This document shows, one piece after another, positions 3,665 through 23,171 of a stretch of DNA of 64,000 nucleotides. Numbering within the stretch: the stretch's first letter is position 1; each line of letters begins with the position of its first letter. Where the stretch lies: positions 3,542,904 through 3,606,903 of the forward strand of contig NZ_KB455575.1 in assembly GCF_000341735.1 (NCBI RefSeq), given 5' to 3'. Under the pieces are notes generated by a model. The model was not told where the DNA came from, searched no databases, and saw only the letters and a program-made list of their open reading frames with translations. Position numbers and translations under genes: made by a program. Source of the DNA: Methylotuvimicrobium buryatense 5G (GTDB lineage Bacteria; Pseudomonadota; Gammaproteobacteria; Methylococcales; Methylomonadaceae).

Positions 3665-5923
3665 TTAGTCGAACATCGGAAATAAATCGATCAATCCATC
3701 GGCGGGAAGCGGTTTGGAATATAAAAAGCCTTGTCCGAAACGGCAGCCCGCTTGCATCAAGTAGGTGGCTTGTTCTTTATTTTCAATGCCTTCGGCAATG
3801 ATATCCAAACGCATGTGACGGGCAATCGAAATGATGGAGTGGACAATCACTTTATCGTCAGGGTCGTTCAATATGTCACGGACAAAGGAGCGGTCGATCT
3901 TGATCGAATTAATCGGAAATTTTTTAAGATACGTTAACGAGGAATAACCCGTGCCGAAATCGTCCAACGATACGGTTATGCCCATTTGCATCAATTGTTG
4001 CAAAATGCGTATCACGGCGGACATATGTTGCATCATGACGGTTTCGGTGATTTCGATTTCTAAAAACCTCGCGTCAAGTCCGGTGCTATCCAGGCACTGC
4101 CTGATCGAATGGACCAAATCATTTTGCAGAAATTGTCGTGCCGATAGATTGACGCAGATTTTTTTTAATTGCGGTTGATCTTGATCGCGCCAAATCTTGA
4201 ATTGCTTACAAGCGGACTTTAAAACCCATTCGCCGATTGCAACGATCATACCGGTTTCTTCGGCAATCGGAATGAAGTCATCGGGTGAAATCAGTCCTTT
4301 TCTCGGGTGATTCCAGCGTAACAACGCTTCGAAACCGATAATTTGATTCGGTGTTGTTTGTAAATCGATCAAGGGTTGGTAGTATACGATAAACTCATGA
4401 TTGGGCAGGGCATGATGCAGATCGTTTTCAAGCGTGCTGCGGGTGAGCGCCTCGGAGCGCATATTATCGGAGAAATATTGGTAATTATTGCGTCCCGAAG
4501 CTTTTGCGTGATACATCGCGGCATCCGCGTTTTTGATCAATTCATCGACCGAAGAGCCATCCTTCGGAAATAGCGTGAATCCGATACTCGTCGATGTGAT
4601 GAACTGGTTGCCGGATAAATCGAAAGGTTGCGATAACACATCGAGTATTTTTTTGGCGATCTCGGCGCTATGTAGTGCCGCACTCTGTTCGTCGACGAAA
4701 TCGGTCAATAAAATAACGAATTCGTCGCCACCGAAACGCGCGACCGTATCGCTTTCTCGCACGCAGCTTTTGAGGCGTTTAGCCACATTTTGCAGCAATA
4801 AGTCGCCGGCAAAATGACCGAGGGTATCGTTGAGTATTTTGAAGCGATCCAGATCGAGAAAAAACACCGAAAGCCATAGTTTATGGCGTACCGCTTGAAC
4901 GATGCCTTGCTTGAGCCGGTCGTTCAATAAAGCGCGATTAGGCAGTTCGGTCAAGGGATCGAAATAAGCCAATTGTTCGATTTGTTTCTCATTGAGTTTG
5001 CGTAGCGTGATGTCGGAAAATATGCCGATATAATGACTGACGCGACCGAATTTATCGTTGATGCGGCAAATACTGAGCCATTCGGCGTATAAATCTCCAT
5101 TTTTTCTACGGTTCCAGATTTCGCCTTGCCAACAGCCTTCTTTGTTGATTTTTTGCCACATATCGCGGTAGAACTCAGGGCTTTGTCGCCCGGAGGAGAG
5201 AATTTTCGGCGTTCGGCCGATGACTTCGGCCGGTTTATAGCCCGTTACCGCGGTAAAAGCGAAGTTTATTTTGAGAATGGTCGTATCGGGCGCGGTAATC
5301 ATGATGCTTTCCTGGCTATGCTCGAACACTTTCGCGGCAAGTTTTAGTTGCTCTTCCATTTTTTTGCGTTCGCCGATAGTAATGATATTGACCAGTAAAC
5401 AATCATGGTTGAAATCGACACTCGCGCCGGCTTGCTTTTTTATCAGGCGTCCGCTGAGTTCAACGTAAATGGGTTTTTTGTGCATATCGAGCACTCTCAA
5501 CTCGATTTGCTTTCCCTCCGGCTTTTTATAAAAAGCGTTGTAACGTGCGTTAAAAATACTCAAGTCGTCGGCATGAATAAAAGCGGCAAGAAACTTATCG
5601 CGTAATTCGCTATGGCTTTTACCGAGCATTTCTTGCACGGTCTGATTCGACTGCAAAATGCGTCCTTTTTCATCCAGTCTTAAAAAACCTACCGGCGCTA
5701 GGTCGAAAAGTGTAATGAAGTCGTTTCTTGAAGCAATGAGTTGTTGCTGCGCTTCTACGAGCTGTTCGTTTTGCATGCGCAGTTCGATTTGATGCACATT
5801 CAGCTCGTGAAACAGCGTCTGCAAATCAAGCGGCAAATCCGCATCGAGATGGTTCGGCTCGAAATTGATTAAGGATTCCGCTTCATGTCTTAAATCGTCG
5901 ATATCCGCTGGATTTTTCTTCAT
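3665..5923 (-). CDS. PAS-PAS-GGDEF-EAL c-di-GMP turnover protein
   Basis: About 752 residues from the ATG at 5923; a TTG at 5962 would add 13 residues and overlap the gene upstream. Coiled-coil segment, then two PAS domains (about residues 75-300), a GGDEF domain with intact RFGGDEF (about 395) and an RESD inhibitory site five residues before it, and an EAL domain with EALLRW, DDFGTGYSS and AEGIE. Both halves look catalytically complete, so it could make or destroy c-di-GMP depending on PAS input. No membrane segment: cytoplasmic. It follows the CheB-CheR fusion gene by 13 bp and is probably co-transcribed. Confidence 0.88.
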   Translation of the reverse strand: MKKNPADIDDLRHEAESLINFEPNHLDADLPLDLQTLFHELNVHQIELRMQNEQLVEAQQQLIASRNDFITLFDLAPVGFLRLDEKGRILQSNQTVQEMLGKSHSELRDKFLAAFIHADDLSIFNARYNAFYKKPEGKQIELRVLDMHKKPIYVELSGRLIKKQAGASVDFNHDCLLVNIITIGERKKMEEQLKLAAKVFEHSQESIMITAPDTTILKINFAFTAVTGYKPAEVIGRTPKILSSGRQSPEFYRDMWQKINKEGCWQGEIWNRRKNGDLYAEWLSICRINDKFGRVSHYIGIFSDITLRKLNEKQIEQLAYFDPLTELPNRALLNDRLKQGIVQAVRHKLWLSVFFLDLDRFKILNDTLGHFAGDLLLQNVAKRLKSCVRESDTVARFGGDEFVILLTDFVDEQSAALHSAEIAKKILDVLSQPFDLSGNQFITSTSIGFTLFPKDGSSVDELIKNADAAMYHAKASGRNNYQYFSDNMRSEALTRSTLENDLHHALPNHEFIVYYQPLIDLQTTPNQIIGFEALLRWNHPRKGLISPDDFIPIAEETGMIVAIGEWVLKSACKQFKIWRDQDQPQLKKICVNLSARQFLQNDLVHSIRQCLDSTGLDARFLEIEITETVMMQHMSAVIRILQQLMQMGITVSLDDFGTGYSSLTYLKKFPINSIKIDRSFVRDILNDPDDKVIVHSIISIARHMRLDIIAEGIENKEQATYLMQAGCRFGQGFLYSKPLPADGLIDLFPMFD

Positions 5924-5936
5924 CTTGCGTGCCGGT

Positions 5937-8900
5937 TTAGTGTCGTTGTTCGCTGAATGCAATCAAAAGCGCTTCTCCGACGTGATCTCCGAGAACCGAT
6001 GCGTTTATTTTGACGGCTAATTCTTGATTGTCCTTGGTGAGTCTTTGGGTCGATAGCGTTTGCGGGGCCGAACATCCCCGCGTCAATCCGGCGATAAAGC
6101 GCAGTACTTGTGTTCTGCCGGATTCGGGCGTTAGGTCCGCGATATTGCGGCCTATGGTTTCTTGCTTGAGCCAACCGTATAAATTCTCGGCGCCTTTATT
6201 CCAAGCGGTTATTTTTCCATTAGGGTCCAGTAAAATTAACGATTCTTCGGTATCCATCACGAGCGAAGCAAGGCGCTGAAGGCAACTGACGCAATCGTTT
6301 TTGACCGCCGTCATACGTGCACTAATATCGCGCTCGGTCAAGGCGATCAATTCGTTGCCTTGGCTTTCGGAATAAAGTAGCGAAGCCGTAACGGAAACAT
6401 CGATCAATTTACCGCTTTTGGTGATACGCCGAGTTTCAAATTGCGATACGGCTTCGCCTAGATGATTTTTTTGCTGCAGCTTAGCAGCGATCGAGATGTC
6501 GGCAGACGGCATAAGCGATTGAAATTTCATGCCCAGCGCTTCCCGTTCAGTCCATCCGTAGAGTTTTTCGGCGCCGCGGTTCCAGGTGACGATGTTGCCG
6601 TCCAAGTCTTGCAACGTGATCGCGTCGTCAGAATAAAGCGCGAAATTGGCTAAGCGTTCGCGTTCCATTTTTTCGCGTATCTTAAGCTCGGTTTCGGTGC
6701 GTTTTAGCCGGTCGATATCGATGAAAGTCAGAATGATGCCGGCATAGGCATTGTCGGATATGGCGTAGGGTAAAACACGCAATAGATACCAATCGCCATT
6801 GGCGGTTTGCAGTTCCTGTTCGAACGGCGTTTGATTTTCGGACACCTCGTTGACGATTGCATCCAGATTGATATCGAGAATCGAATGCGACAAATGAAAA
6901 AAGGGCCGGCCGAGATCGTTGTCTCGGATATGGAATATCGACTCGAGTTGATGAGTAAAGCGCCTGACTTCGAGATTTTCGTCGAGAAATAGTGTCGCGA
7001 TATTGGTGCTATTGAACAAATTATCCAAGTCGTTATTAAGCAGCGTTAATTCGGTGATCTTGCCTTGATACTCGGCGTTGACGGTATACAATTCTTCATT
7101 GACCGATTGCAGCTCTTCGTTGGTGCTTTGCAGTTCTTCGTTGCTGGCTAGCAGTTCTTCATTGGTTGCTTGCAGCTCTTCGTTGGATGTTTCCAACTCC
7201 TCTACCGTCGTTTGCAGGTTTTCTCGCGTGAATTGTAATTCCTGCTCCAGGTCATTGATGCGTTGTCGTGCATCCATGTCGACGTCGTAGGATAAAGGTT
7301 CGGTCGAGTTCGGCTTATTGGGCTCGGTCGTTTCGCTGATCATGACCGCGAGCAATTTTTCCTGGCTTTTCTTGCCGGGCAGGTTTTTGATGGTTAGCGT
7401 GACCGTTCTTAATTGATCATGGTCGTGAATGCGTATATTGGATAAGACGATTTCATTCGTGCCTTTTAACGCTTTATTAATGCCGGTTGCAATGGGTATT
7501 GCCAGATCCTTTATGACGATTTTCGTGACGTCGCTGCTGATTTTACCGCTGGGATAGGATAAATAGTCTCTGGCTTCACCGAAGGTATGCGAGATTTCCA
7601 TGTTTTCGTTAACCAACATTGTAAACGGCAAAATATCCCCTGCAATGCCGTTGACGAAACGCTCTAACGTCCGGTCTTCGGAAAAACGGTTGATGGCCGG
7701 GCGGTTGACAGTCGTTGTGAAGGAAGGTTGAAAGCTAGAACCGGTAATTGGGCGCTGTTCCAAAGGTGTCAGCCCGGTTGCTTTGTATTTACCTTTGGAG
7801 CGGTATAGTTTGGTTTTAGGACTGACAAAGTCGAAATAATCGACCATATCGCCGATAGTTTCGCTGGTGCCGAGCAGTAGCAAACCGTCCTTGGTCAGCG
7901 AAAAATTGAATAATTCTAAGATTTTTTTCTGTAAAACCGGCTGCAGATAAATCAGCACGTTTCTACAACTGATCATATGAATATTGGTGAATGGTGGGTC
8001 CTTGATCAGGTTATGCTGGGCAAAAACCACCATTTCTCTAATTTTTTGCGTGACTTGAAAATTATCTTCCTTGCGTGAAAAATATTTGCTCAATAGCTCT
8101 GGCGGCACATCGGCGGCAATACTTTCAGGGTACAAACCGGCGCTCGCTTTCTCGATAGCGTTTTGATCGATATCGGTCGCGAATATTTTGATGCGGAAGT
8201 AATGTCCGGATTGCTCACGATATTCGGCGAGTAACATCGCCAGCGAATAAGCCTCTTCGCCAGTCGAGCATGCGGTTACCCACAAACGTAGGTCATCTCC
8301 TTGCAGTTTTCCGATCGATTCAGGTAGCCATTTTTCATTGAACTCTTGAAAAACGAATTCGTCCCGGAAAAAACATGTCACACCGATCAAAAGCTCTTGA
8401 TAGAGGGTATTGATTTCTTGCTGGTTCGTTTCCATGAACCGGACATATTCGGTCAAATCGGCAAGTTGATTGATGCTGACCCGTCTCTCGATGCGGCGCA
8501 TTACAGTACTAGGTTTGTAATAGGTAAAATCGATTTTGCATTTTTCGCGAAGCAGCGCGAAGATGCGGGTAATGCTGGTGCCGCCTTGTGGGATGATGTC
8601 CGTTTCCAGGCTGCCGGAATAAGGATGTTTAATGAAGGATAATAACTGCGGAGGCATTTCGTCCGGCGCAAGAATAAAATCGGCAAGCCCGGTCGCGGTT
8701 GCGTTGTTCGGCATGCCGGTGAATTTGGCGGATTCTTCGTCTTGAACCATCACCATGCCGCCGTGTTCCTTGATCGCCCGAATGCCGCGAGTGCCATCGC
8801 TGCCTGTTCCGGACAAAATAATCGCAATCCCGCGATTTCCTGCATCCTCGGCTAGAGATCGCAAGAAGATATCGACTGGCAGGTTAAGTCCTTCGGTTCG

Positions 8901-9374: not shown

Positions 9375-11087
9375 TCACGACGCAGCGACAGATCTTAATA
9401 TTTCGTTCGAAACGAAGTTGCCTTGTATTGGTTTTGAAAACAAATAGCCTTGCCCGTAGCTGCACCCGCTTTGTAAAACCAGTTCGGCTTGTTGTTCAGT
9501 TTCAATACCTTCTGCGAGTACTTCGAGATCTAAATTACGCCCGAGGCCTATGATTGCTCGCAGCATATCGGCCTGACGCGATTGTGGAGATTCGATTGTT
9601 CGTACGAAGGATTGATCGATTTTTAGCAAGTCAATCGGATAACGCTGAAGATATGCCAATGAAGAATAACCTGTACCGAAATCGTCCATCGACAATGAAA
9701 GTCCCATATTCTTTAAATGCGACATGATTCTCAATGTTGCATCTTCATGACAAATCGCAATATTTTCGGTGATTTCGAGATCTAGGCAATGCGGGGGCAA
9801 ACCGCTGTCATCGAGAGCTCTTTTGACTGATTCTAGTAAGCCGCTCTTATAAAATTGGATGACAGACAAATTTACGGCCACTTTGATCGGTAGTCCGATC
9901 TGGTCTAGCCATTGCTTAGCTTGTCGGCAAGACTCTTGAATGACCCAGTTTCCAACAGGGACGATCAAGCCGGTTCTTTCCAATAATGGAATGAATTTTA
10001 ACGGAGACACAATGCCTAGGGTGGGGTGGTGCCAGCGCAACAAGGCTTCAGCGCCGATAATTTTCCTGCTGGCGATATCGATTTGCGGTTGATATAAGAT
10101 ATGAAATTGTTTGCTAGCCAATGCTCGATGGATGTCGGATTCTAAAAGGTAGCGGTCGTGTAAGCCCGAATTCATTTCCGATGAATAGAAGATTAACGGT
10201 TTGACGCCGTAAGTATCCGTATGTTCCAGTGCAATTTCGGCACCGAGCAATAGCTCTTCGCCAGTCGAACCGCCATTCGGGTAAGTGTTTACACCGACCG
10301 AGATATCGGCAAATACGATTTGACCATCCAAAGAGAAAGGCTGCGAAAAAATGTCGAGTAAATCGAGCAGCGTTTTTTGCAATACATCGATGCGTATGTT
10401 ATGGGCAATAACGGCCAAGCAATTGTGACTGATCATATAAGCATCGTCTTTCAACAAACTTGATATACGTTCCGAAACTGTTTTGACTAAGTCTTGGTAT
10501 AAGCCATTGCCAATGGTAAAACGGCTTTGCGGTAGACGATTCAAACGAAATAGAACCAGAGAAAAGGGCATTTCTTGATTGGTTTTAGCCGATATCATGC
10601 GCAAATTTTCTAGTAAATGTTCGCGATTCGGCAAGCCGGTATAATTGTCGTAATTAACTAGACGGTGAATATTGGCTTTGGCTTTGCGCAGTCCATCGCG
10701 AATAGAGAATTCCCGTAACTCACGCTCTATAACCGGTAGTAGTCTGGCGAAATCGCCTTTACGAATAAAATCTTGTGCACCGGCCTGCATTGCTTCAATC
10801 ATTATTTCATCAGTTATCGAGCCGGATACGATAATCAGCGGAATATCTAGCCCCGTCTGATTCAGAATATTCAGAGCAGACATCAAATCGAAGCATGGCA
10901 TATTATGATCGCACAATACCGCATGCCATTGATTTATTGTCAAGGCTTGTTGAAATGATTCCGGATTATCGACACGTTCGTAATTGAGCTGATAACCGGC
11001 GTTGTGAAACTGATAACTCAGTAGTTCGCAATCATCGGCATTATCTTCAACGAACAATAAATTTAATTGCTTAGTTTCGCAATTCAT
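9375..11087 (-). CDS. Receiver-degenerate GGDEF-EAL c-di-GMP phosphodiesterase
   Basis: 570 residues. N-terminal receiver domain (about 8-125) with the phospho-acceptor Asp in LCDHNMP. The GGDEF domain (about 150-300) keeps its fold motif YTGLPNREHL but has ISHNCLAVI where GGDEF should be, so it should not make c-di-GMP. The EAL domain (about 315-560) has EALLRW, LEITEN, DDFGTGYSS, LKIDQSF and AEGIE, all needed for hydrolysis. It is therefore predicted to be a phosphorylation-controlled phosphodiesterase. AGGAG precedes the start. It lies between cheR and the CheB-CheR fusion gene, linking chemosensory output to c-di-GMP. Confidence 0.88.
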   Translation of the reverse strand: MNCETKQLNLLFVEDNADDCELLSYQFHNAGYQLNYERVDNPESFQQALTINQWHAVLCDHNMPCFDLMSALNILNQTGLDIPLIIVSGSITDEIMIEAMQAGAQDFIRKGDFARLLPVIERELREFSIRDGLRKAKANIHRLVNYDNYTGLPNREHLLENLRMISAKTNQEMPFSLVLFRLNRLPQSRFTIGNGLYQDLVKTVSERISSLLKDDAYMISHNCLAVIAHNIRIDVLQKTLLDLLDIFSQPFSLDGQIVFADISVGVNTYPNGGSTGEELLLGAEIALEHTDTYGVKPLIFYSSEMNSGLHDRYLLESDIHRALASKQFHILYQPQIDIASRKIIGAEALLRWHHPTLGIVSPLKFIPLLERTGLIVPVGNWVIQESCRQAKQWLDQIGLPIKVAVNLSVIQFYKSGLLESVKRALDDSGLPPHCLDLEITENIAICHEDATLRIMSHLKNMGLSLSMDDFGTGYSSLAYLQRYPIDLLKIDQSFVRTIESPQSRQADMLRAIIGLGRNLDLEVLAEGIETEQQAELVLQSGCSYGQGYLFSKPIQGNFVSNEILRSVAAS

Positions 11088-15110: not shown

Positions 15111-15662
15111 TTATTCGATGTCTAACGGACGAGTTTCGCCGGCCTCGCTCAATGCAGCCATTTCATCGACCGAAAGTACGCGGTTGCCGTTTAACAAAAT
15201 AATGAAGCGGCCGTTGCTTTTGGCCATGCCATTGATGAAGTCAGGGCGGATGCCAATGCCGAAATTGGGGGGCGGCTCGATTTCTTGTTGTGCAATATCG
15301 ATGACTTCGTTAACGGCATCGACGATGATGCCAATGTCGTGTGAGCCCTCCCCCCCGTTTTCGGTTTCGACGATCACGATTCCGCTTCGTTTGGCGATTG
15401 GCGTCATTCCTTTGCCGAAGCGCGCCATCAGATCGATGACCGGGACGACACTACCTCGCAGGTTGATGACACCGCGTACAAAATCGGGCATCATCGGGAC
15501 TTCGGTTAATTCGCCGTAGGCTATGATTTCCTTGATATTCAAGATGCCCAGCGCATATACTTCGCCGTTTAGCATAAAAGTGAGGTACTGACCGGCCTTG
15601 GCGAGCGTTTGCGTGTTTTTTACCACTGGCTTGCGTTCGGTTGTCGTTGCGATTTCAGTCAT
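15111..15662 (-). CDS. cheW: Chemotaxis coupling protein CheW
   Basis: 183 residues, one CheW domain (about 22-165) with VRGVINLRGSVVPVIDL, and an acidic/threonine-rich tail. It couples the receptors to CheA in the signalling array. GGAGG lies before the ATG. It starts 9 bp after the stop of the upstream receptor gene. Phe/Tyr-rich N-terminal extension of 20 residues is unremarkable. Confidence 0.93.
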   Translation of the reverse strand: MTEIATTTERKPVVKNTQTLAKAGQYLTFMLNGEVYALGILNIKEIIAYGELTEVPMMPDFVRGVINLRGSVVPVIDLMARFGKGMTPIAKRSGIVIVETENGGEGSHDIGIIVDAVNEVIDIAQQEIEPPPNFGIGIRPDFINGMAKSNGRFIILLNGNRVLSVDEMAALSEAGETRPLDIE

Positions 15663-15671
15663 GAGTTCCTC

Positions 15672-17621
15672 CTAAAAGCGTGCGAATTGCTTGAGATCGA
15701 ATTCGCTCTCAACGTCGGTTGTTTCGTATTCTTCGATCGGTTTGACAGGTTTGGTTTTTTTCTGCTCCCTGACAGCAAAGGCCGGCGATTTTTTTTCGTT
15801 CCGCGCGATAGTGAAGAACCCCATCAAGCTTTGTAATTGTTCGGCTTGCCCTGTCATTTCTTCTGCAGTCGCGGCCAACTCCTCGCTTGCCGAGGCATTC
15901 TGTTGAGTGATCTGGTTCATTTGATTCATCGCAGTATTGATTTGGCTGACACCCGAGGCTTGTTCTTGAGAGGAGGCGGCAATTTCTTGAACCAAGTCTG
16001 ACGTTTTTGCGATGCTAGGTACGATTTCGTCGAGCAATTTTCCAGCGCTTTCGGCGGTCATAACGCTGCTTTCCGCTAGTTCGCCGATTTCTTGTGCGGC
16101 TATTTGGCTACGTTCAGCCAATTTACGCACTTCCGCAGCGACTACCGCGAAGCCTTTTCCGTGGTCGCCTGCTCGAGCAGCCTCAATGGCGGCATTTAAT
16201 GCCAACATATTGGTTTGATAAGCGATATCGTCGATGATGCCGATTTTTGCCGCGATGTCTTTCATTGCCGAGACGGTTTGTTTGACGGCTTCTCCGCCTT
16301 CGGTTGCTTCTTTCGATGCTTTGCCGGCCATGCCGTCGGTAACTTTGGCGTTTTCCGAATTCTGATTAATGCTGGCGGCCATTTGTTCAATGCTGGCGCT
16401 GGTTTGTTCGACGCTGGCGGCTTGCTCGCTAGATGCTTGCGACAACGATTGCGACGTTGCGCTTATTTGCTCTGAAGCCGAACCTAATTGGTCGGCAGCT
16501 GCGACGACTTCGGCTATCGTTTGCGAAAGCTTGACGATGGTATTGTTGACCGTTTGTTTGAAGTCGTTGAGTTGGCCTTTGTAGTCGCCGGCAATGTTGA
16601 GTGTAAGGTCGCCTTGTTCGACTCGCGTCAATACATCGATGGCTTCGTTGACGGGTACAATTACGCCATCTAATGTATCGTTCACGCCTTGGACAATTTT
16701 ACGGAATTCGCCTTGATGTTTACTCGCTTCGGCTCGTGTTGCCAAGCGACCGTCCGTGGCGGCTTGAGCTAGCATATTGGCATCGTCGACCAAGGATTGA
16801 ATAGCCGACATCATGTTTTTCATTGCCGCCATCACACTGGATCTATCGTCGGATTTCAATTCGATTTGGGTAGATAGATCGCCGACTGCAATTTTATTGG
16901 CCAGCATGACGACGAAATCGGGTTCTCCTCCGAGTTGAGCCATGATGCTGCGAGTTATCCAGGCCCCTAGAGCAAATAACGCAATCAACATCAAAAAAGC
17001 ACCGGTCAGCATCATGGTTTTCGACGAATTGACTTGCTGATTGCCTACAGCAACCGCTTCATCGCCATATTTGACGTTCAAATCGATGATTTTGGCTAGC
17101 GTTGCTTCTGCTTTTGCGAATAAAGGTTCGTTCTTTTGAGTGCGTTGATAAAACTCTGCGAAGAGATCCTTCTGACGCTGCTCGTCCCGATTTTCGCTTA
17201 ATGCGGAAATCGTATCGGTAATCTTGTTATCGGCTAACTTCCATTCCTCCCATTCACTGACGAATTGTTTCCACAATACGGCTTCTTCCTCGGTTTGCGG
17301 CAGCGGTTCGTAAAGTTTCCAGCCATTATCGATGCGGCGCCATATGTTTTTTTTCCTATTCGCTTCTTCGGAAAATTGGGTTTGCGCTTGATAGTCGTTC
17401 TCGAAAAAAGCGATGCGCCGGTTGGACGCGCTGATTGCGGTTTGCCCTTCATTAATGATTTCAAGACCGAGTACCGACGGCAAACGAACTTCGCCGACTT
17501 CGCTAAGTGAAGCGGCCGTGCCGACTAAACCGTACCAGCCGAATGCACCGACGATTAGTAACGCTATAAGAGCGACGGCTTGTATGCCGATTAACTTTGT
17601 TTTTAATGTCAGATTTTTCAT
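15672..17621 (-). CDS. Methyl-accepting chemotaxis protein, transmembrane
   Basis: 649 residues. Membrane segments at about 9-30 and 203-222 enclose a roughly 170-residue periplasmic four-helix-type sensor domain. Tandem HAMP-like repeats and a signalling domain with the hairpin tip [21 protein letters not shown] follow. The C-terminus has a [13 protein letters not shown] linker and ends FARF, not a CheR-tethering pentapeptide. It sits directly between cheA (92 bp upstream) and cheW, so it is the likely main receptor of this array. Its ligand is unknown. Confidence 0.92.
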
Positions 17622-17713
17622 AGTTATCTTCCGATTATGTGTAATTAACGAATAACCATTTCAGTCGATTACCGGACCCAGGCAAACGTGCGATCCAGTG
17701 GTCGTAGCGGATA

Positions 17714-19897
17714 TCAATGTGTGTTCGAAGCAAATTCTTGTTGTCTTAGCAATGTCGGGACATCGATAATCAGTGCGACTTCGCCGCTACCGAGAATCGT
17801 CGAGCCGCCGACCCCTTGCACATGCCCGAACAACTTTCCGAGTGGTTTGATTACCGTTTGCAGTTCGCCTTTTAGTTTGTCGACGACCAAACCAGCCTTG
17901 ACGCCAAGATGTTCGACGACAATGACATTTTGGCGTTTTGATAGGGTTGCCTTTTTGTTGAACAGTTGGCGCAGGCGAATGAAAGGCAAAACTTCGCCGC
18001 GCAATTCCATATAATCGTGATTTTCATTAGGCGGCAGCGCGACGCATTCGACGACCCTGTCAAGCGGTATCACATAAGAAGATTCGCCGACGCCGACTAA
18101 AAATCCGTCGATGATCGCAAGCGTCAAAGGTAAATAAATCCGCAGTGTCGTACCTTTTCCGGGTGTACTGTCGATAGCGATGTCGCCCCGTAATTCGGTG
18201 ATATTGCGTTTGACGACATCCATGCCAACGCCACGGCCGGATAAGTTTGAAATTTGATCGGCAGTCGAAAAGCCGGGTTCGAAAATCAGCGAATAAACTT
18301 CCTGGTCGCTCAATGTTTCACCAACTTGTATCAACCCGCGTTCGACCGCTTTCGCTAAAATCTTGTCACGGTCAAGTCCGCGTCCGTCGTCTGAAACTTC
18401 GATTACAATGTTGCCCGAGCTATGGTAAGCATTGAGTTGTAAATTTCCTTGCGCGGGTTTATCGCGTTCAATGCGCAACTGGGCTGGCTCGATGCCGTGA
18501 TCCATCGCATTACGCACCAAATGCATCAAAGGATCGCCGATTTTTTCGACGACCGATTTATCGATTTCAGTATCGGCGCCGCTGATATGTAACTTAATGT
18601 CTTTACCCAATTCTTTGCTGACATCGCGAACGACGCGTTGAAAACGGCTGAATGTGGATCCGATCGGCACCATGCGTAGTTGCAGTGCGCTGTCGCGTAC
18701 TTCCTCGACAAGGCTAATGACGGCCGCATTGGCTTCTTGTAAAGCCATGTCTCCGGTTTGCGAGGCGCGTAAGCTAGCGGATGCACCGGCGATAACTAGC
18801 TCGCCTATCAAATCGATTAGTATGTCGAGTCGTCCGGCGTCAACGCGAATACTTTGGTTCTCAATTGCCTTGCTCTCCTTGACGCGTTGCTGTTTTTCGA
18901 GAGCGGCGCTGACGATCGGTTTTTGTACGGTTTGTTGTTCGATAAGAATGTCGCCGATATGCTGCGACTGTTGTCGTTCGCGTTTGGCTTGTTGAGCCTG
19001 AAGTCCCTCTTCAAGTTCGCGGCGCGTAATGACGCCGCATTTGATCAACAACTCGCCGAGTTGCATGTCATCTGATTCGAGTGAGTCGATCAAATCGATG
19101 TAATATTCGATCTTGCTTTCCAGCGGTAGGATATGAATTTGGCTGCCGGCCCTTACGAAATCGAAAACATTCTCGATATCGGCTTTTTCCGCATCGCTTT
19201 TGAAGACAATTTCGAAGATGAGATAATTGCTTTCAGGATCCATTTCGCCGGCGCTTGGTAACGCTTGCGTAGATGTCGTCAACTCGATGATTTCACCGAG
19301 CTTCGTCAAATAAAGGATGAACGACAACGGGTCCATGCCATCGCGCAGACAATCCGGATTGAAATGCAAAAAGAGATGCCAATTGCCGCTTTTTGAATTG
19401 TCGCACTCAATATTTTGGACACGATGGGTTTCGTCTTGCACTTGGATAGACTGTGATGCCACTTGGCTCGAATCGGTCTGTTTTCCCTCGGCGTTATCGA
19501 GAAAGGGCTGCAATCCCGCAATTATTTTTTCACTTTGCTTCGTTAGATCAGAATTTTCTTCGGTATGTCCTTTGGCAATTTCTCGAACTAGAATGCCGAG
19601 ATGGTCGCAACAAGGCAGCAACGCGGCGACCAATTCAGAATCGACTTTTAAAAGACCGTCTCGCATGGCATCGAGCACGCTTTCAACAACGTGAGTAAAG
19701 CCGACGATGTGTTCGAACCCGAATATGCCCGCGCCACCTTTGATTGTATGAGCCGCGCGAAAGATTGCATTGATGGTTTCTTCGGATTCTTCAATGCTTT
19801 CCAGTTCCATCAAACCCTCTTCCATGACCTGCAATAACTCGGCGCTTTCGATGGTGTAGTTAACCAGCAATTCCTGCATTTCTTTATCTAAACTCAT
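17714..19897 (-). CDS. cheA: Chemotaxis histidine kinase CheA with an MshEN-like insert
   Basis: 727 residues. Hpt domain with phospho-acceptor His50 in AAHTIKGG; a P2-like domain (about 172-258, from NWHLFLHFNP); an insert at 278-340; dimerisation (about 350-410); ATPase with LVRNAMDHGIEP and DDGRGLD; CheW-like C-terminal domain. The insert contains QLGELLIKCGVITRRELEEG followed by a second half, HIGDILIEQQ. This resembles the MshEN fold of type II secretion and pilus ATPases, which in some proteins binds c-di-GMP. That resemblance is by eye. GAGGAG precedes the start. It lies 4 bp after the STAS gene. The kinase should phosphorylate CheY (20269-20637) and perhaps other receivers here. Confidence 0.94.
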   Translation of the reverse strand: MSLDKEMQELLVNYTIESAELLQVMEEGLMELESIEESEETINAIFRAAHTIKGGAGIFGFEHIVGFTHVVESVLDAMRDGLLKVDSELVAALLPCCDHLGILVREIAKGHTEENSDLTKQSEKIIAGLQPFLDNAEGKQTDSSQVASQSIQVQDETHRVQNIECDNSKSGNWHLFLHFNPDCLRDGMDPLSFILYLTKLGEIIELTTSTQALPSAGEMDPESNYLIFEIVFKSDAEKADIENVFDFVRAGSQIHILPLESKIEYYIDLIDSLESDDMQLGELLIKCGVITRRELEEGLQAQQAKRERQQSQHIGDILIEQQTVQKPIVSAALEKQQRVKESKAIENQSIRVDAGRLDILIDLIGELVIAGASASLRASQTGDMALQEANAAVISLVEEVRDSALQLRMVPIGSTFSRFQRVVRDVSKELGKDIKLHISGADTEIDKSVVEKIGDPLMHLVRNAMDHGIEPAQLRIERDKPAQGNLQLNAYHSSGNIVIEVSDDGRGLDRDKILAKAVERGLIQVGETLSDQEVYSLIFEPGFSTADQISNLSGRGVGMDVVKRNITELRGDIAIDSTPGKGTTLRIYLPLTLAIIDGFLVGVGESSYVIPLDRVVECVALPPNENHDYMELRGEVLPFIRLRQLFNKKATLSKRQNVIVVEHLGVKAGLVVDKLKGELQTVIKPLGKLFGHVQGVGGSTILGSGEVALIIDVPTLLRQQEFASNTH

Positions 19898-19901
19898 CGT
19901 T

Positions 19902-20195
19902 TTACTCCTCGTCGCTGGAGAGCACTACTTGATCGCCGAAAGTGCCGGTCAAGTTGGTCAGCTCCAATACGTTCAGGACCGCTTGGCTATGCATGACAAA
20001 CTTGAGTTTTTTACCGGCTTTCATGGCTTCGCGTTTAATCAGGATCAAAAGCTGCAAGCCGGCGGTGTCGATTTCCGAAACATTAGCGAGATCGACCTCC
20101 AATTCTTCGTCGCACTCGAGAAACTCAAGTAAGCGCGGCTTTTGTTCTGCTGCGTTGAAAATGTTGAGTTCGCTTTCCAGAGCTAGAGTTTGCAT
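19902..20195 (-). CDS. STAS-domain protein of the chemosensory cluster
   Basis: 97 residues forming a single STAS domain, with VDLANVSEIDTAGLQLL (about 33-50), where Ser39 or Thr43 could be a phosphorylation site as in SpoIIAA-type anti-anti-sigma factors. It is between cheY and cheA with an AGGAGA site. Small STAS proteins are common in this kind of alternative chemotaxis operon, but their role there is not well settled. No anti-sigma kinase or PP2C gene is nearby, so the partner is unknown. Confidence 0.85.
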   Translation of the reverse strand: MQTLALESELNIFNAAEQKPRLLEFLECDEELEVDLANVSEIDTAGLQLLILIKREAMKAGKKLKFVMHSQAVLNVLELTNLTGTFGDQVVLSSDEE

Positions 20196-20268
20196 GAGTT
20201 CTCCTAGGCTTTAAGTTCGGTTACGATTGCTGAGCCATTTGCAGTGCCATCGAGCAGATTATTGAAGT

Positions 20269-20637
20269 TCACGGGAGAATCAATTTGGAAACTGCGGCTA
20301 GCATCTGTTGCGGCTGAAACGGCTTAACGACCCAGGCTTTGGCGCCTGCCGCTTGACCCTCTTGGATCTTACTTTGCTGTGATTCGGTAGTCAGCATGAT
20401 GATCGGCGTAAATTTATAGGCAGGTAGTTTTTTGGCTTCTTTGACGAATGTGATGCCGTCCATGTTCGGCATATTGACATCGGAAATGATCAAATGAATT
20501 TTCTTGCCGTCCATTTTGCTTAGTGCGTCTTTGCCGTCGCAGGCCTCGATGACCTCGTAGCCGTCGCCTTTCAACGAGATTTTGACGAGTTGACGGATCG
20601 ATGAGGAATCGTCGACGATCATGATGGTTTTGCTCAT
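20269..20637 (-). CDS. cheY: CheY-type response regulator
   Basis: 122 residues from the ATG at 20637 (MSKTIMIVDD), chosen because AGGAGA precedes it; the longer frame from 20679 overlaps the upstream receptor. It is a lone receiver domain with acidic pocket VDDSSS, phospho-acceptor Asp in ISDVNMPNMDG, and Lys in VVKPFQPQQ. It is the likely direct target of the CheA encoded two genes downstream. Whether it drives a flagellar motor, pili or c-di-GMP enzymes is not visible. Confidence 0.93.
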   Translation of the reverse strand: MSKTIMIVDDSSSIRQLVKISLKGDGYEVIEACDGKDALSKMDGKKIHLIISDVNMPNMDGITFVKEAKKLPAYKFTPIIMLTTESQQSKIQEGQAAGAKAWVVKPFQPQQMLAAVSKLILP

Positions 20638-20647
20638 GGTTTTTCTC

Positions 20648-21844
20648 CTAGAAAAAAGTAATGATTGAAGGGGCGTCATCGGCCGTTTGGTCCGGCTTCC
20701 GACCCTCTTGGTGAAGCTGGCGCTCTTCCGCCATCGCGTAAGAGCGTTCCAATTCGGCCATTAACGCTTCGGGATCGATGGTTTCGATTTCGCCGTTAGT
20801 GTTGAATTTTTCGAGCATGCTGTCGAAACGAGGAGGCAGGCTTTCGATGTTTTCGCAGACGTGACTGAGTACTTGGCTGACACGGTCTTGGAATTGCAAG
20901 CTGACGATAGCGTTTTGCACTTCCCGTTGAATACAGGCGCTTTCGTTGCGTAGAATTGCCGTCGATTCGGCAAGCGTATTCGTGGCTTCGTGAAAATCGC
21001 TCAAAACTTTGTTGATCGATTGCTCGGCATGATTGACCGACTCGGCATCGTGTTCTGCTGTATGCGTGGCTTCTTCAAATGCCGAAGAGATCGCGGCATT
21101 GATCGTTTCGACTTTTTCGGTGATGCGTTTGCCGGTTTCACCAGACATGGTCGACAGTTTACGAACCTCATCGGCCACCACCGCGAAACCTCGACCTGCC
21201 TCTCCGGCGCGCGCCGCCTCGATCGATGCATTGAGCGCGAGCAGATTGGTTTGACCCGCGATGCCGGCGACATCGGCGGCCATGGTTTTCAGATCGTCGA
21301 TGAATTGCAGCAATCGGTGTATTTCCATCAGCAGAGCATCTTTGTTTTGTTTAGCCGCGCGAAGAGAATTGACGACGGTTTCGAGTTCTTGCTTATTGCG
21401 CTCGAACATCACGACTAAACCGGAATCGCCCGAAGCCATCGCCGAAGCGTCGATCGATTGTTCGATGCGGTCAATGATTTCGCTAAATTGGTCGAGAAGT
21501 TGCATCGTCGCGTTTTCCATCTGGCTGCGGGAGCTTTCGATCTGCCGTGTCCATACCGGCATCAATTGGTGTGCCAAATGTTGCTGATTTTCCAGTAATG
21601 TTGCGATCAAATTTTTGTCGGATTCCCGGTTTTTTGTATTATCCGAATTTAATGTGGCCGCGACTTGACCTGAAAGTGTATTGCTGAGGCGTATGCCAAT
21701 ACCGATAGCAACGATAGGCAATGATGCGGCGATTGCCGCAGCTTGCCAACCAAGGTCCGCAATAGCGGTGATCGCGACGGCACAGGCGCCCATTGCACCG
21801 ATAATTGCCGTACCGATCAGGCAAGCTGTTCTGATGTTTTCCAT
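20648..21844 (-). CDS. Short methyl-accepting chemotaxis protein
   Basis: 398 residues. Two N-terminal membrane helices close together (about 8-50) with almost no periplasmic loop, then directly a coiled-coil receptor domain with [20 protein letters not shown]. No HAMP or sensor domain can be seen, so it probably senses from the membrane or the cytoplasm, or acts as a structural member of the array. The C-terminal end is Glu/Gln-rich. It is 10 bp before cheY. Confidence 0.9.
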
Positions 21845-21860
21845 ATTGACTCCCAGTCGA

Positions 21861-22244
21861 CTAATGTTTTGAATTCATATCCGGGCGACCGACCAAGCCC
21901 GTAATGACCTCGATAATATTGTTATAGTCCTTGATCTTGTCGAAGAAATAGCTGGCGCCATATTGCAATGCACGCTTTTTGTGCTGCTCGGTCGGGACGA
22001 GTGTCATTACTAAAATGTGTACGACTTCGCATTTGGATTTGATAGCTTTTAGAACTTCGAATCCATGACCGTCTTCCAGGCATAAATCGAGCAAAACGAT
22101 TTCAGGATGGTGAACGGTGGCCAATGCGATCGCTGTTTCAACAGAATCGGCTTCGAGTAGCGAATGTTCCGGAATGCTGAGGCTAAGCATTTCGATGATT
22201 CGTTGGCGAACCAACGGGGAATCTTCAACAACCATCAGTTTCAT
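21861..22244 (-). CDS. Single-domain response regulator
   Basis: 127 residues, a lone receiver with acidic pocket VVEDSP, phospho-acceptor Asp in [12 protein letters not shown], and a Lys in FFDKIKDYN in place of the usual KPF. It starts the chemosensory transcription unit, 16 bp ahead of the short receptor gene. It may be a second CheA target acting as a phosphate sink, or belong to another kinase. Confidence 0.88.
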
Positions 22245-22523
22245 GACTTTTTAATAAATGTTTTTCGTTGGGAAGCATCATGCGAAAAAAAGCGCATAAA
22301 AAATATCGGTGTATTTCCGAAATGACTTCTAGGAAAAAAGACGAGTGGCTATAGGAAAATTCCTATAAATGGTTTGTAAGCCGTGTTGCTTGCGGGCTAT
22401 TGGTAGTTCTTAAGGAAAGAAGGTGTCGGGGGACGGGTTGATGAGATTGCAAACGATTTCACGTTTTCGAGAAGAACTCGATGCATACCGGCTATAAATC
22501 CGGCTTTTGTTGTCGGTCGATTT
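22245..22523. other. Intergenic region before the chemosensory operon
   Basis: No gene seen. It holds a 16-bp perfect palindrome, ATAGGAAAATTCCTAT-like (22351-22366), which might be an operator, and a small GCG...CGC hairpin with a T-run near 22279-22299. It is the likely promoter region of the chemosensory operon on the minus strand, but no clear -35/-10 pair was found. Confidence 0.3.
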
Positions 22524-23171
22524 TCAAGGCATATCTAGAAGCTGATGTTTGATTGCATAACGGATTAAGTCGGCGTTAGTCGTCAATTGCATTTTTTGGA
22601 GGATATGCGTCTTGTGCGTGCTGATGGTTTTTACGCTGACAGAGAGTCGGTTGGCAATTTCGGTCAGGCCTTGACCGTCCGCCAATAGTTTGAAAATTTG
22701 AAATTCGCGGTCGGAGAGCAATGTGTGCGGTGGTTTGTCGCCGGATGATGTATTGCTATTAAATTCCATCGCCATGCGTTCAGCCGACGCTGGACTAATG
22801 AAAATGCCGCCGCTTGCCGCTTTGCGGATTGCCGAGACCAGTAATGTTGATGCGCTTTCTTTGGTCAGATAGCCAGAGGCGCCGGCTTTATATGCGCGAA
22901 TCGCATATTGTTCCTCGCTATGCATGCTGAGGATTAGTACCGGTAATTTAGGTTGATCGGATTTGATTTGTTTCAACAATTCCAAACCGCTACGCCCGGG
23001 CATCGTCATGTCCATTACCATGACATGAATGTCGAGTTTACGCATGAGCCGGAGCGCTTCCATGCCGTCTGAGGCCTCGCCGACCACTTCGATGTCGTCG
23101 GAATCGGCGAGGATTAGCTTCAGGCCTTCGCGCAAGATCGCGTGATCGTCAACCAGCAATACTTTTATCAT
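22524..23171 (-). CDS. NarL/FixJ-type response regulator
   Basis: 215 residues. Receiver domain (about 2-118) with Asp in VMDMTMPGRSG and Lys in YLTKES, then a LuxR-type DNA-binding domain (about 148-210) with SDREFQIFKLLADG and SVKTISTHK. Its start lies 23 bp inside the end of the preceding kinase gene, so the two are coupled and form a NarX/NarL-like pair. Target genes are unknown. Confidence 0.92.
   Translation of the reverse strand: MIKVLLVDDHAILREGLKLILADSDDIEVVGEASDGMEALRLMRKLDIHVMVMDMTMPGRSGLELLKQIKSDQPKLPVLILSMHSEEQYAIRAYKAGASGYLTKESASTLLVSAIRKAASGGIFISPASAERMAMEFNSNTSSGDKPPHTLLSDREFQIFKLLADGQGLTEIANRLSVSVKTISTHKTHILQKMQLTTNADLIRYAIKHQLLDMP

Follow-up and report, generated by a model that had tools for sequence, protein, structure and literature searches.

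A divergent MshEN_N domain in a CheA kinase of Methylotuvimicrobium buryatense, a predicted receptor for c-di-GMP

Can a chemotaxis kinase itself be a receptor for c-di-GMP? Known direct links between this messenger and chemosensing are PilZ adaptors, PilZ-bearing chemoreceptors and motor brakes. The question is raised by a cheA gene located in a stretch of 64,000 nucleotides of the Methylotuvimicrobium buryatense 5G genome (contig NZ_KB455575.1, positions 3,542,904 to 3,606,903 of the forward strand), hereafter called the window. A sequence-only reading had noticed two half-repeats at residues 278–340 of the protein and had proposed that they form an MshEN domain, by which CheA activity could be tuned directly by c-di-GMP. 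Translation of the minus strand at 18878–19066 gives MQLGELLIKCGVITRRELEEGLQAQQAKRERQQSQHIGDILIEQQTVQKPIVSAALEKQQRVK, and both half-repeats are indeed present, in frame. The plus strand of the same interval is also open, without a recognisable protein.

Four domains of this CheA are identified by Pfam above cut-off: Hpt (P1), H-kinase_dim (P3), HATPase_c (P4) and CheW (P5), and the phosphorylation motif HTIKG is found in the translation of P1 (Table 1). In the AlphaFold2 model of residues 160–410 (pLDDT 85), a P2-like domain (171–259) is followed by a four-helix bundle. The P2-like domain has no Pfam match, P2 included, and a fold search with the same model yielded, for this part, nothing more specific than ferredoxin-like, PII-like and ribosomal matches. 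Helix 4 of the bundle (326–348) carries the second half of motif II in this model and runs towards the dimerisation domain; five residues separate its end from the start of the first P3 helix (354–381).

Table 1. Features of the CheA gene and of its chemosensory neighbourhood (positions in the window).
Feature	Position	Strand	Basis and remarks
PAS-GGDEF-EAL protein	3665..5962	minus	Pfam; both signatures present: RFGGDEF, EALLRW, DDFGTG
CheB-CheR-PAS fusion, 1091 aa	5937-9212	minus	within chemosensory block
REC - degenerate GGDEF - EAL protein	9375..11087	minus	Pfam; GGDEF motif absent, EALLRW and DDFGTG present
Core block: CheW, MCP, CheA, STAS, CheY, MCP-like, REC, REC-LuxR	15111..23171	minus	Pfam
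cheA, 727 aa	17714..19897	minus	P1 (Hpt, HTIKG), P3, P4, P5; Pfam and translation
P2-like alpha/beta domain, residues 171-259	19121..19387	minus	beta-alpha-beta-beta-alpha-beta order in AlphaFold2 model
Helix, residues ~262-272, directly before the MshEN domain	19082..19114	minus	AlphaFold2 models
MshEN motif I, residues 279-302, QLGELLIKCGVITRRELEEGLQAQ	18992..19063	minus	10/11 consensus positions; NF053729
Inter-motif spacer, residues 303-312, 10 residues	18962..18991	minus	sequence
MshEN motif II, residues 313-336, HIGDILIEQQTVQKPIVSAALEKQ	18890..18961	minus	6/11 strict consensus positions
Long helix alpha-4, residues 326-348, predicted	18854..18922	minus	AlphaFold2 model of residues 160-410
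P3 dimerisation domain, residues 347-404	18686..18859	minus	Pfam H-kinase_dim

Motif I departs from the published 24-residue consensus at a single one of its 11 positions, where Arg1 is replaced by Gln279, and is the best of all 24-mers of the CheA. Motif II agrees at six positions and ranks equal third among these 24-mers; it retains Gly315, Leu333 and Gln336, and has His313 for Arg1 and Gln322 for Gly10. The two motifs resemble each other beyond chance, since 20 of 100,000 shuffles of motif II reach the observed score. The NCBIfam model NF053729, which describes an MshE-related c-di-GMP motif (53 residues, cut-off 38 bits), matches the 63-residue segment along its entire length (model positions 1–53 of 53, E=5.9e-9). 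Scores for the window CheA lie just below the cut-off (35.6 bits for the segment, 27.2 for the whole protein and 31.3 in the genome scan), and the segment is the top single-domain match genome-wide. All 57 homologous CheA segments scanned are matched by this model. Among ten relatives scanned singly, seven exceed the cut-off (L010, L012, L013, L014, L031, L040 and L073, at 41.6–64.4 bits), and scores just under it (34–37 bits) were obtained for the close orthologues L009 and L006 and also for L018.

The Pfam MshEN profile, to which the sequence-only reading would have turned for confirmation, proved to be misleading as a test. PF05157 gave no match at E<10 on the window segment or on the CheA, nor did it match any of the 57 CheA homologues. 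In a pilus ATPase of the same genome (L002), PF05157 matches C-terminal to (downstream of) the stretch recognised as the c-di-GMP motif. PF05157 is therefore a poor test of MshEN_N, and its negative outcome says little. The Pfam family DUF4388 gave weak matches (3e-4 at best) in 28 of the 57 CheA MshEN segments, perhaps a sign of distant kinship between DUF4388 and the MshEN bundle.

A profile constructed from the 57 segments was searched against the PDB and matched residues 291–360 of Thermus thermophilus PilF, its GSPII-C domain, at 5.2e-22; PilB was found at 7e-10 and MshE (5htl) at 5e-7. The AlphaFold2 model of an 84-residue segment (pLDDT 89.9) shows helices at 280–286, 292–307, 314–320 and 326–344, with a short helix before them. 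The nine best PDB fold matches obtained with Foldseek are all c-di-GMP-bound MshE or PilF GSPII-B. The predicted model superimposes on 5htl_B (c-di-GMP-bound MshE) at 0.8 Å rmsd over 61 columns, with a probability of 1.00. With so small a domain, the Foldseek E-values are weak (0.17–0.27 for the three best matches). A coiled coil, which would have spoken against the proposed domain, is not what AlphaFold2 predicts, since the structure obtained is a four-helix bundle. The segment is Gln/Glu-rich and helical, as would be a low-complexity or coiled-coil linker resembling MshEN by chance, but this origin is rejected as exceedingly improbable in view of the NF053729 match, the PDB profile match (5e-22), the confident AlphaFold2 bundle, the Foldseek matches and the invariance of ligand residues in 57 CheAs. 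By its sequence and predicted fold, this part of the CheA is a divergent MshEN_N (GSPII N-terminal) domain, without the MshEN_C subdomain.

We then considered the residues by which MshEN_N domains hold their ligand. In MshE and PilF, position 1 stacks on c-di-GMP, positions 2, 17 and 21 form hydrophobic clusters, and further contacts come from backbone amides at positions 3–4 and from Gln24 (PMC5013675, PMC11731258). Gly3 and Gln24 are present in both motifs of the window CheA (Gly281 and Gln302, Gly315 and Gln336), and positions 2, 17 and 21 are filled by Leu280, Leu295 and Leu299 in motif I and by Ile314, Val329 and Leu333 in motif II. The spacer of 10 residues compares with 5 in MshE and with 1 or 5–17 in the homologues. 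The 57 CheAs show no variation at Gly3, Leu21 and Gln24 in motif I, at Gly3 and Gln24 in motif II and at one Ala. The ten contact positions have a mean majority frequency of 0.92. The figure is 0.58 for the remaining motif positions (Mann-Whitney p=2e-4) and 0.68 where the bundle has its hydrophobic and turn residues (p=0.005). These CheAs were selected for a recognisable segment, which inflates overall conservation; such a selection does not by itself explain an invariant Gln pair amid mostly variable neighbours. The MshEN identity suspected from the half-repeats is thus backed by NF053729, the PDB profile search, the predicted fold and a conservation centred on ligand residues; the identity of the domain, its position and the conservation of its ligand residues are established by computation.

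The sequence-only reading had expected conserved Arg and Gln contacts. Both Gln are found (302 and 336), whereas both Arg1 are missing, being replaced by Gln279 and His313, which do not belong to the extended position-1 set Arg/Lys/Leu either. In motif II of the window copy, Gln322 also takes the place of the turn Gly of MshE. Position 1 is Arg in motif I of 49 of the 72 relatives and Pro in motif II of 47 of the 72. In close Methylococcaceae orthologues it is Gln, Lys, Phe or Arg in motif I and Arg, His, Pro or Gln in motif II, and these proteins retain both Gln24 and both Gly3. In T. thermophilus PilF, GSPII-B binds c-di-GMP with a KD of 6 nM despite Lys/Leu at position 1, and GSPII-C, with Pro at position 1 of motif II, binds it at ~0.3–0.5 µM (PMC11731258, PMC12002112). 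The absence of Arg1 therefore leaves binding possible and, since Pro occurs in a published binder, Arg1 is not strictly defining. The replacements assayed and tolerated in published binders are Lys, Leu and Pro, a set that does not extend to Gln and His (PMC11731258, PMC12002112). Substitution of Ile for two Leu in PilF GSPII-A constructs cost only 2.4-fold in affinity (PMC12002112). In PilF GSPII-B, by exchange of both Gln24 for Glu, binding was abolished. For the inactive GSPII-A to regain measurable binding, the two Gln were required, together with Gly3 for high affinity, once other obstacles had been removed (PMC11731258, PMC12002112). Because the window CheA has both Gln and both Gly3, the same residues that were needed to restore GSPII-A, its copy of the domain probably binds c-di-GMP; this estimate, drawn from sequence and from analogy with PilF, is a judgement and not a computed value.

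To follow the history of the domain, we used a tree of 99 CheAs that were gathered by similarity to the window CheA, so that its counts are not frequencies among all CheAs: 72 possess both motifs, 3 a single motif and 24 none, and 12 changes are needed. Pseudomonas accounts for most of the losses, and isolated ones are found in Xanthomonas, Variovorax and Azonexus-like lineages. As the relatives deprived of the domain remain CheAs, it is dispensable for CheA function in general. An MshEN-type domain is widespread in related beta- and gammaproteobacterial CheAs, many of them from environmental bacteria. Among 399 genomes sampled from the phylum, about 12 belonging to the same class gave matches that cover the MshEN segment together with P3. 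In a further set, drawn from other classes, the segment is compact and its spacer is reduced to one residue. In the CheAs L129, L132, L133, L135 and L136, which belong to other classes, motif II begins about one residue past motif I; the genomes concerned often contain several CheA-like matches.

The genome of the window encodes three CheAs of this family. Besides the window copy, these are the paralogue L087, which is more canonical (RLG...Q / PIG...Q) and scores above the NF053729 cut-off (40.7 bits), and a third CheA (L138:4646-6916) whose MshEN segment, RVAESIRKCGSLTQEECRTALSE, is decayed and lacks motif II. An MCP with five HAMP_2 stretches follows this third gene. Three genomes of the same genus (G002, G003 and G004) have kept the paralogue and lack the window CheA, so that the chemosensory block of the window appears to be patchily distributed.

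These data bear on the main rival to c-di-GMP binding, namely that the MshEN fold has been kept as a structural spacer or as a protein-contact module between P2 and P3 and no longer binds the ligand. Several observations go in this direction. In the window copy both Arg1 and the turn Gly of motif II are replaced, the domain has been repeatedly lost or has decayed in CheAs of Pseudomonas, Xanthomonas, Azonexus and others as well as in the third CheA of the same genome, and the fold exists without c-di-GMP binding in XpsE (PMC5013675) and in PilF GSPII-A (PMC12002112). However, ligand Gln, Gly or Leu residues are missing from XpsE and GSPII-A. The window CheA, by contrast, retains both Gln, both Gly3 and a hydrophobic residue in each place of the clusters, and among published binders no contact position tolerates more change than Arg1. 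Furthermore, both motifs are gone in 24 of the 27 non-intact relatives, as expected for the loss of a joint function. We consider a non-binding spacer to be unlikely.

The best explanation overall, to which we attribute a probability of about 0.55, is an MshEN_N receptor domain at residues ~275–340, between the P2-like domain and P3, that would bind c-di-GMP and tune the kinase. Most likely, one c-di-GMP molecule would be bound per domain, each half gripping one guanine through the backbone amides of Gly281/Glu282 and Gly315/Asp316. The clusters Leu280-Val329-Leu333 and Ile314-Leu295-Leu299 would pack on the ligand, with Gln302 and Gln336 contacting the ribose-phosphate. Binding would then clamp the helix pair 1–2 onto the pair 3–4 and, because helix 4 runs on to the P3 helix, would alter the freedom of P1/P2 relative to the P3–P4 core. 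Such a change in P1/P2 freedom, or in dimer geometry, could tune autophosphorylation or output. We infer an effect of c-di-GMP on CheA kinase activity with slightly less than even confidence. Another possibility is that c-di-GMP is bound for localisation, for array assembly or for contact with a pilus or other partner, without any tuning of the kinase. The domain family is indeed best known from type IV pilus and secretion ATPases (PMC5013675), and placement inside a CheA is alone no proof of allostery. This role is nonetheless very unlikely in our opinion, since the domain lies directly before the dimerisation helices and its predicted continuous helix 4 is suited to act on the kinase core.

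Does the gene neighbourhood point to the same messenger? The order of genes in the block, as deduced from Pfam matches, is REC, MCP-like, CheY, STAS, CheA, MCP, CheW, PAS-HAMP-MCP, CheR, REC-GGDEF-EAL, CheB-CheR-PAS and PAS-GGDEF-EAL. The three c-di-GMP or PAS/EAL proteins that had been announced for this block are there, as two GGDEF/EAL proteins and the PAS-bearing CheB-CheR fusion. The 3′ end of the fusion gene overlaps the PAS-GGDEF-EAL gene by 26 bases if the latter starts at the listed TTG. The REC-GGDEF-EAL protein is a candidate phosphodiesterase, since it has kept the EAL signatures and lost the GGDEF motif. The CheA described here might phosphorylate this protein and thus produce a closed feedback loop, a prospect that we infer from gene content and regard as distinctly unlikely. 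As general support for a c-di-GMP receptor, linkage to such genes had to be rejected, because only 3 of 59 intact homologues, as compared to 0 of 21 others, have GGDEF/EAL coding sequence at a distance of 3 kb or less. The gene content of this block fits a c-di-GMP-connected pathway. Read against work on Shewanella and Pseudomonas, it did not establish a numbered chemosensory class, F7 or another, for the cluster.

The closest known systems are the MshEN_N domains of traffic ATPases. The CheA domain shares with that of Vibrio cholerae MshE (PDB 5HTL; Wang et al. 2016, PMC5013675) two 24-residue motifs, a four-helix bundle and the Gly, Leu/Ile/Val and Gln positions of the ligand site. It differs in the absence of both Arg1 and of MshEN_C, in its longer spacer and in its location inside a chemotaxis kinase, the MshE domain being N-terminal to an ATPase. 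PilF GSPII-C, which of all PDB sequences matches the CheA family best, deviates only by Pro at position 1 of motif II, a residue shared with the CheA consensus and replaced by His313 in the window copy; unlike the CheA domain, it is part of a traffic ATPase and contains a further motif. The association of MshEN with CheA is not new, since Wang et al. 2016 list CheA among MshEN-associated proteins, in one sentence and a supplementary table (PMC5013675). No follow-up on this fusion was found in the open-licence papers searched.

In CckA, ShkA and SgmT, kinase output is set by direct binding of c-di-GMP, a property that is only predicted for CheA. None of the three is a CheA and none uses MshEN; SgmT binds c-di-GMP through its GGDEF domain. 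The c-di-GMP site is located in the CA domain of CckA and in the Rec1-Rec2 linker of ShkA (PMC7288161), and SgmT is both a histidine kinase and a c-di-GMP receptor (PMC3509222).

If a c-di-GMP receptor does reside inside CheA, the messenger would act at the kinase itself. Judging from its sequence and its model, the chemosensory pathway of the window CheA may sense c-di-GMP directly. A wider and doubtful generalisation is that a broad clade of beta- and gammaproteobacterial CheAs, the window CheA included, would be direct c-di-GMP receptors by virtue of an MshEN_N domain between P2 and P3, the messenger gating kinase output within the very array by which receptor ligands are detected; a loop through the REC-EAL protein may close the circuit in this genome. 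The lineages without the domain, mainly Pseudomonas, would then represent natural controls.
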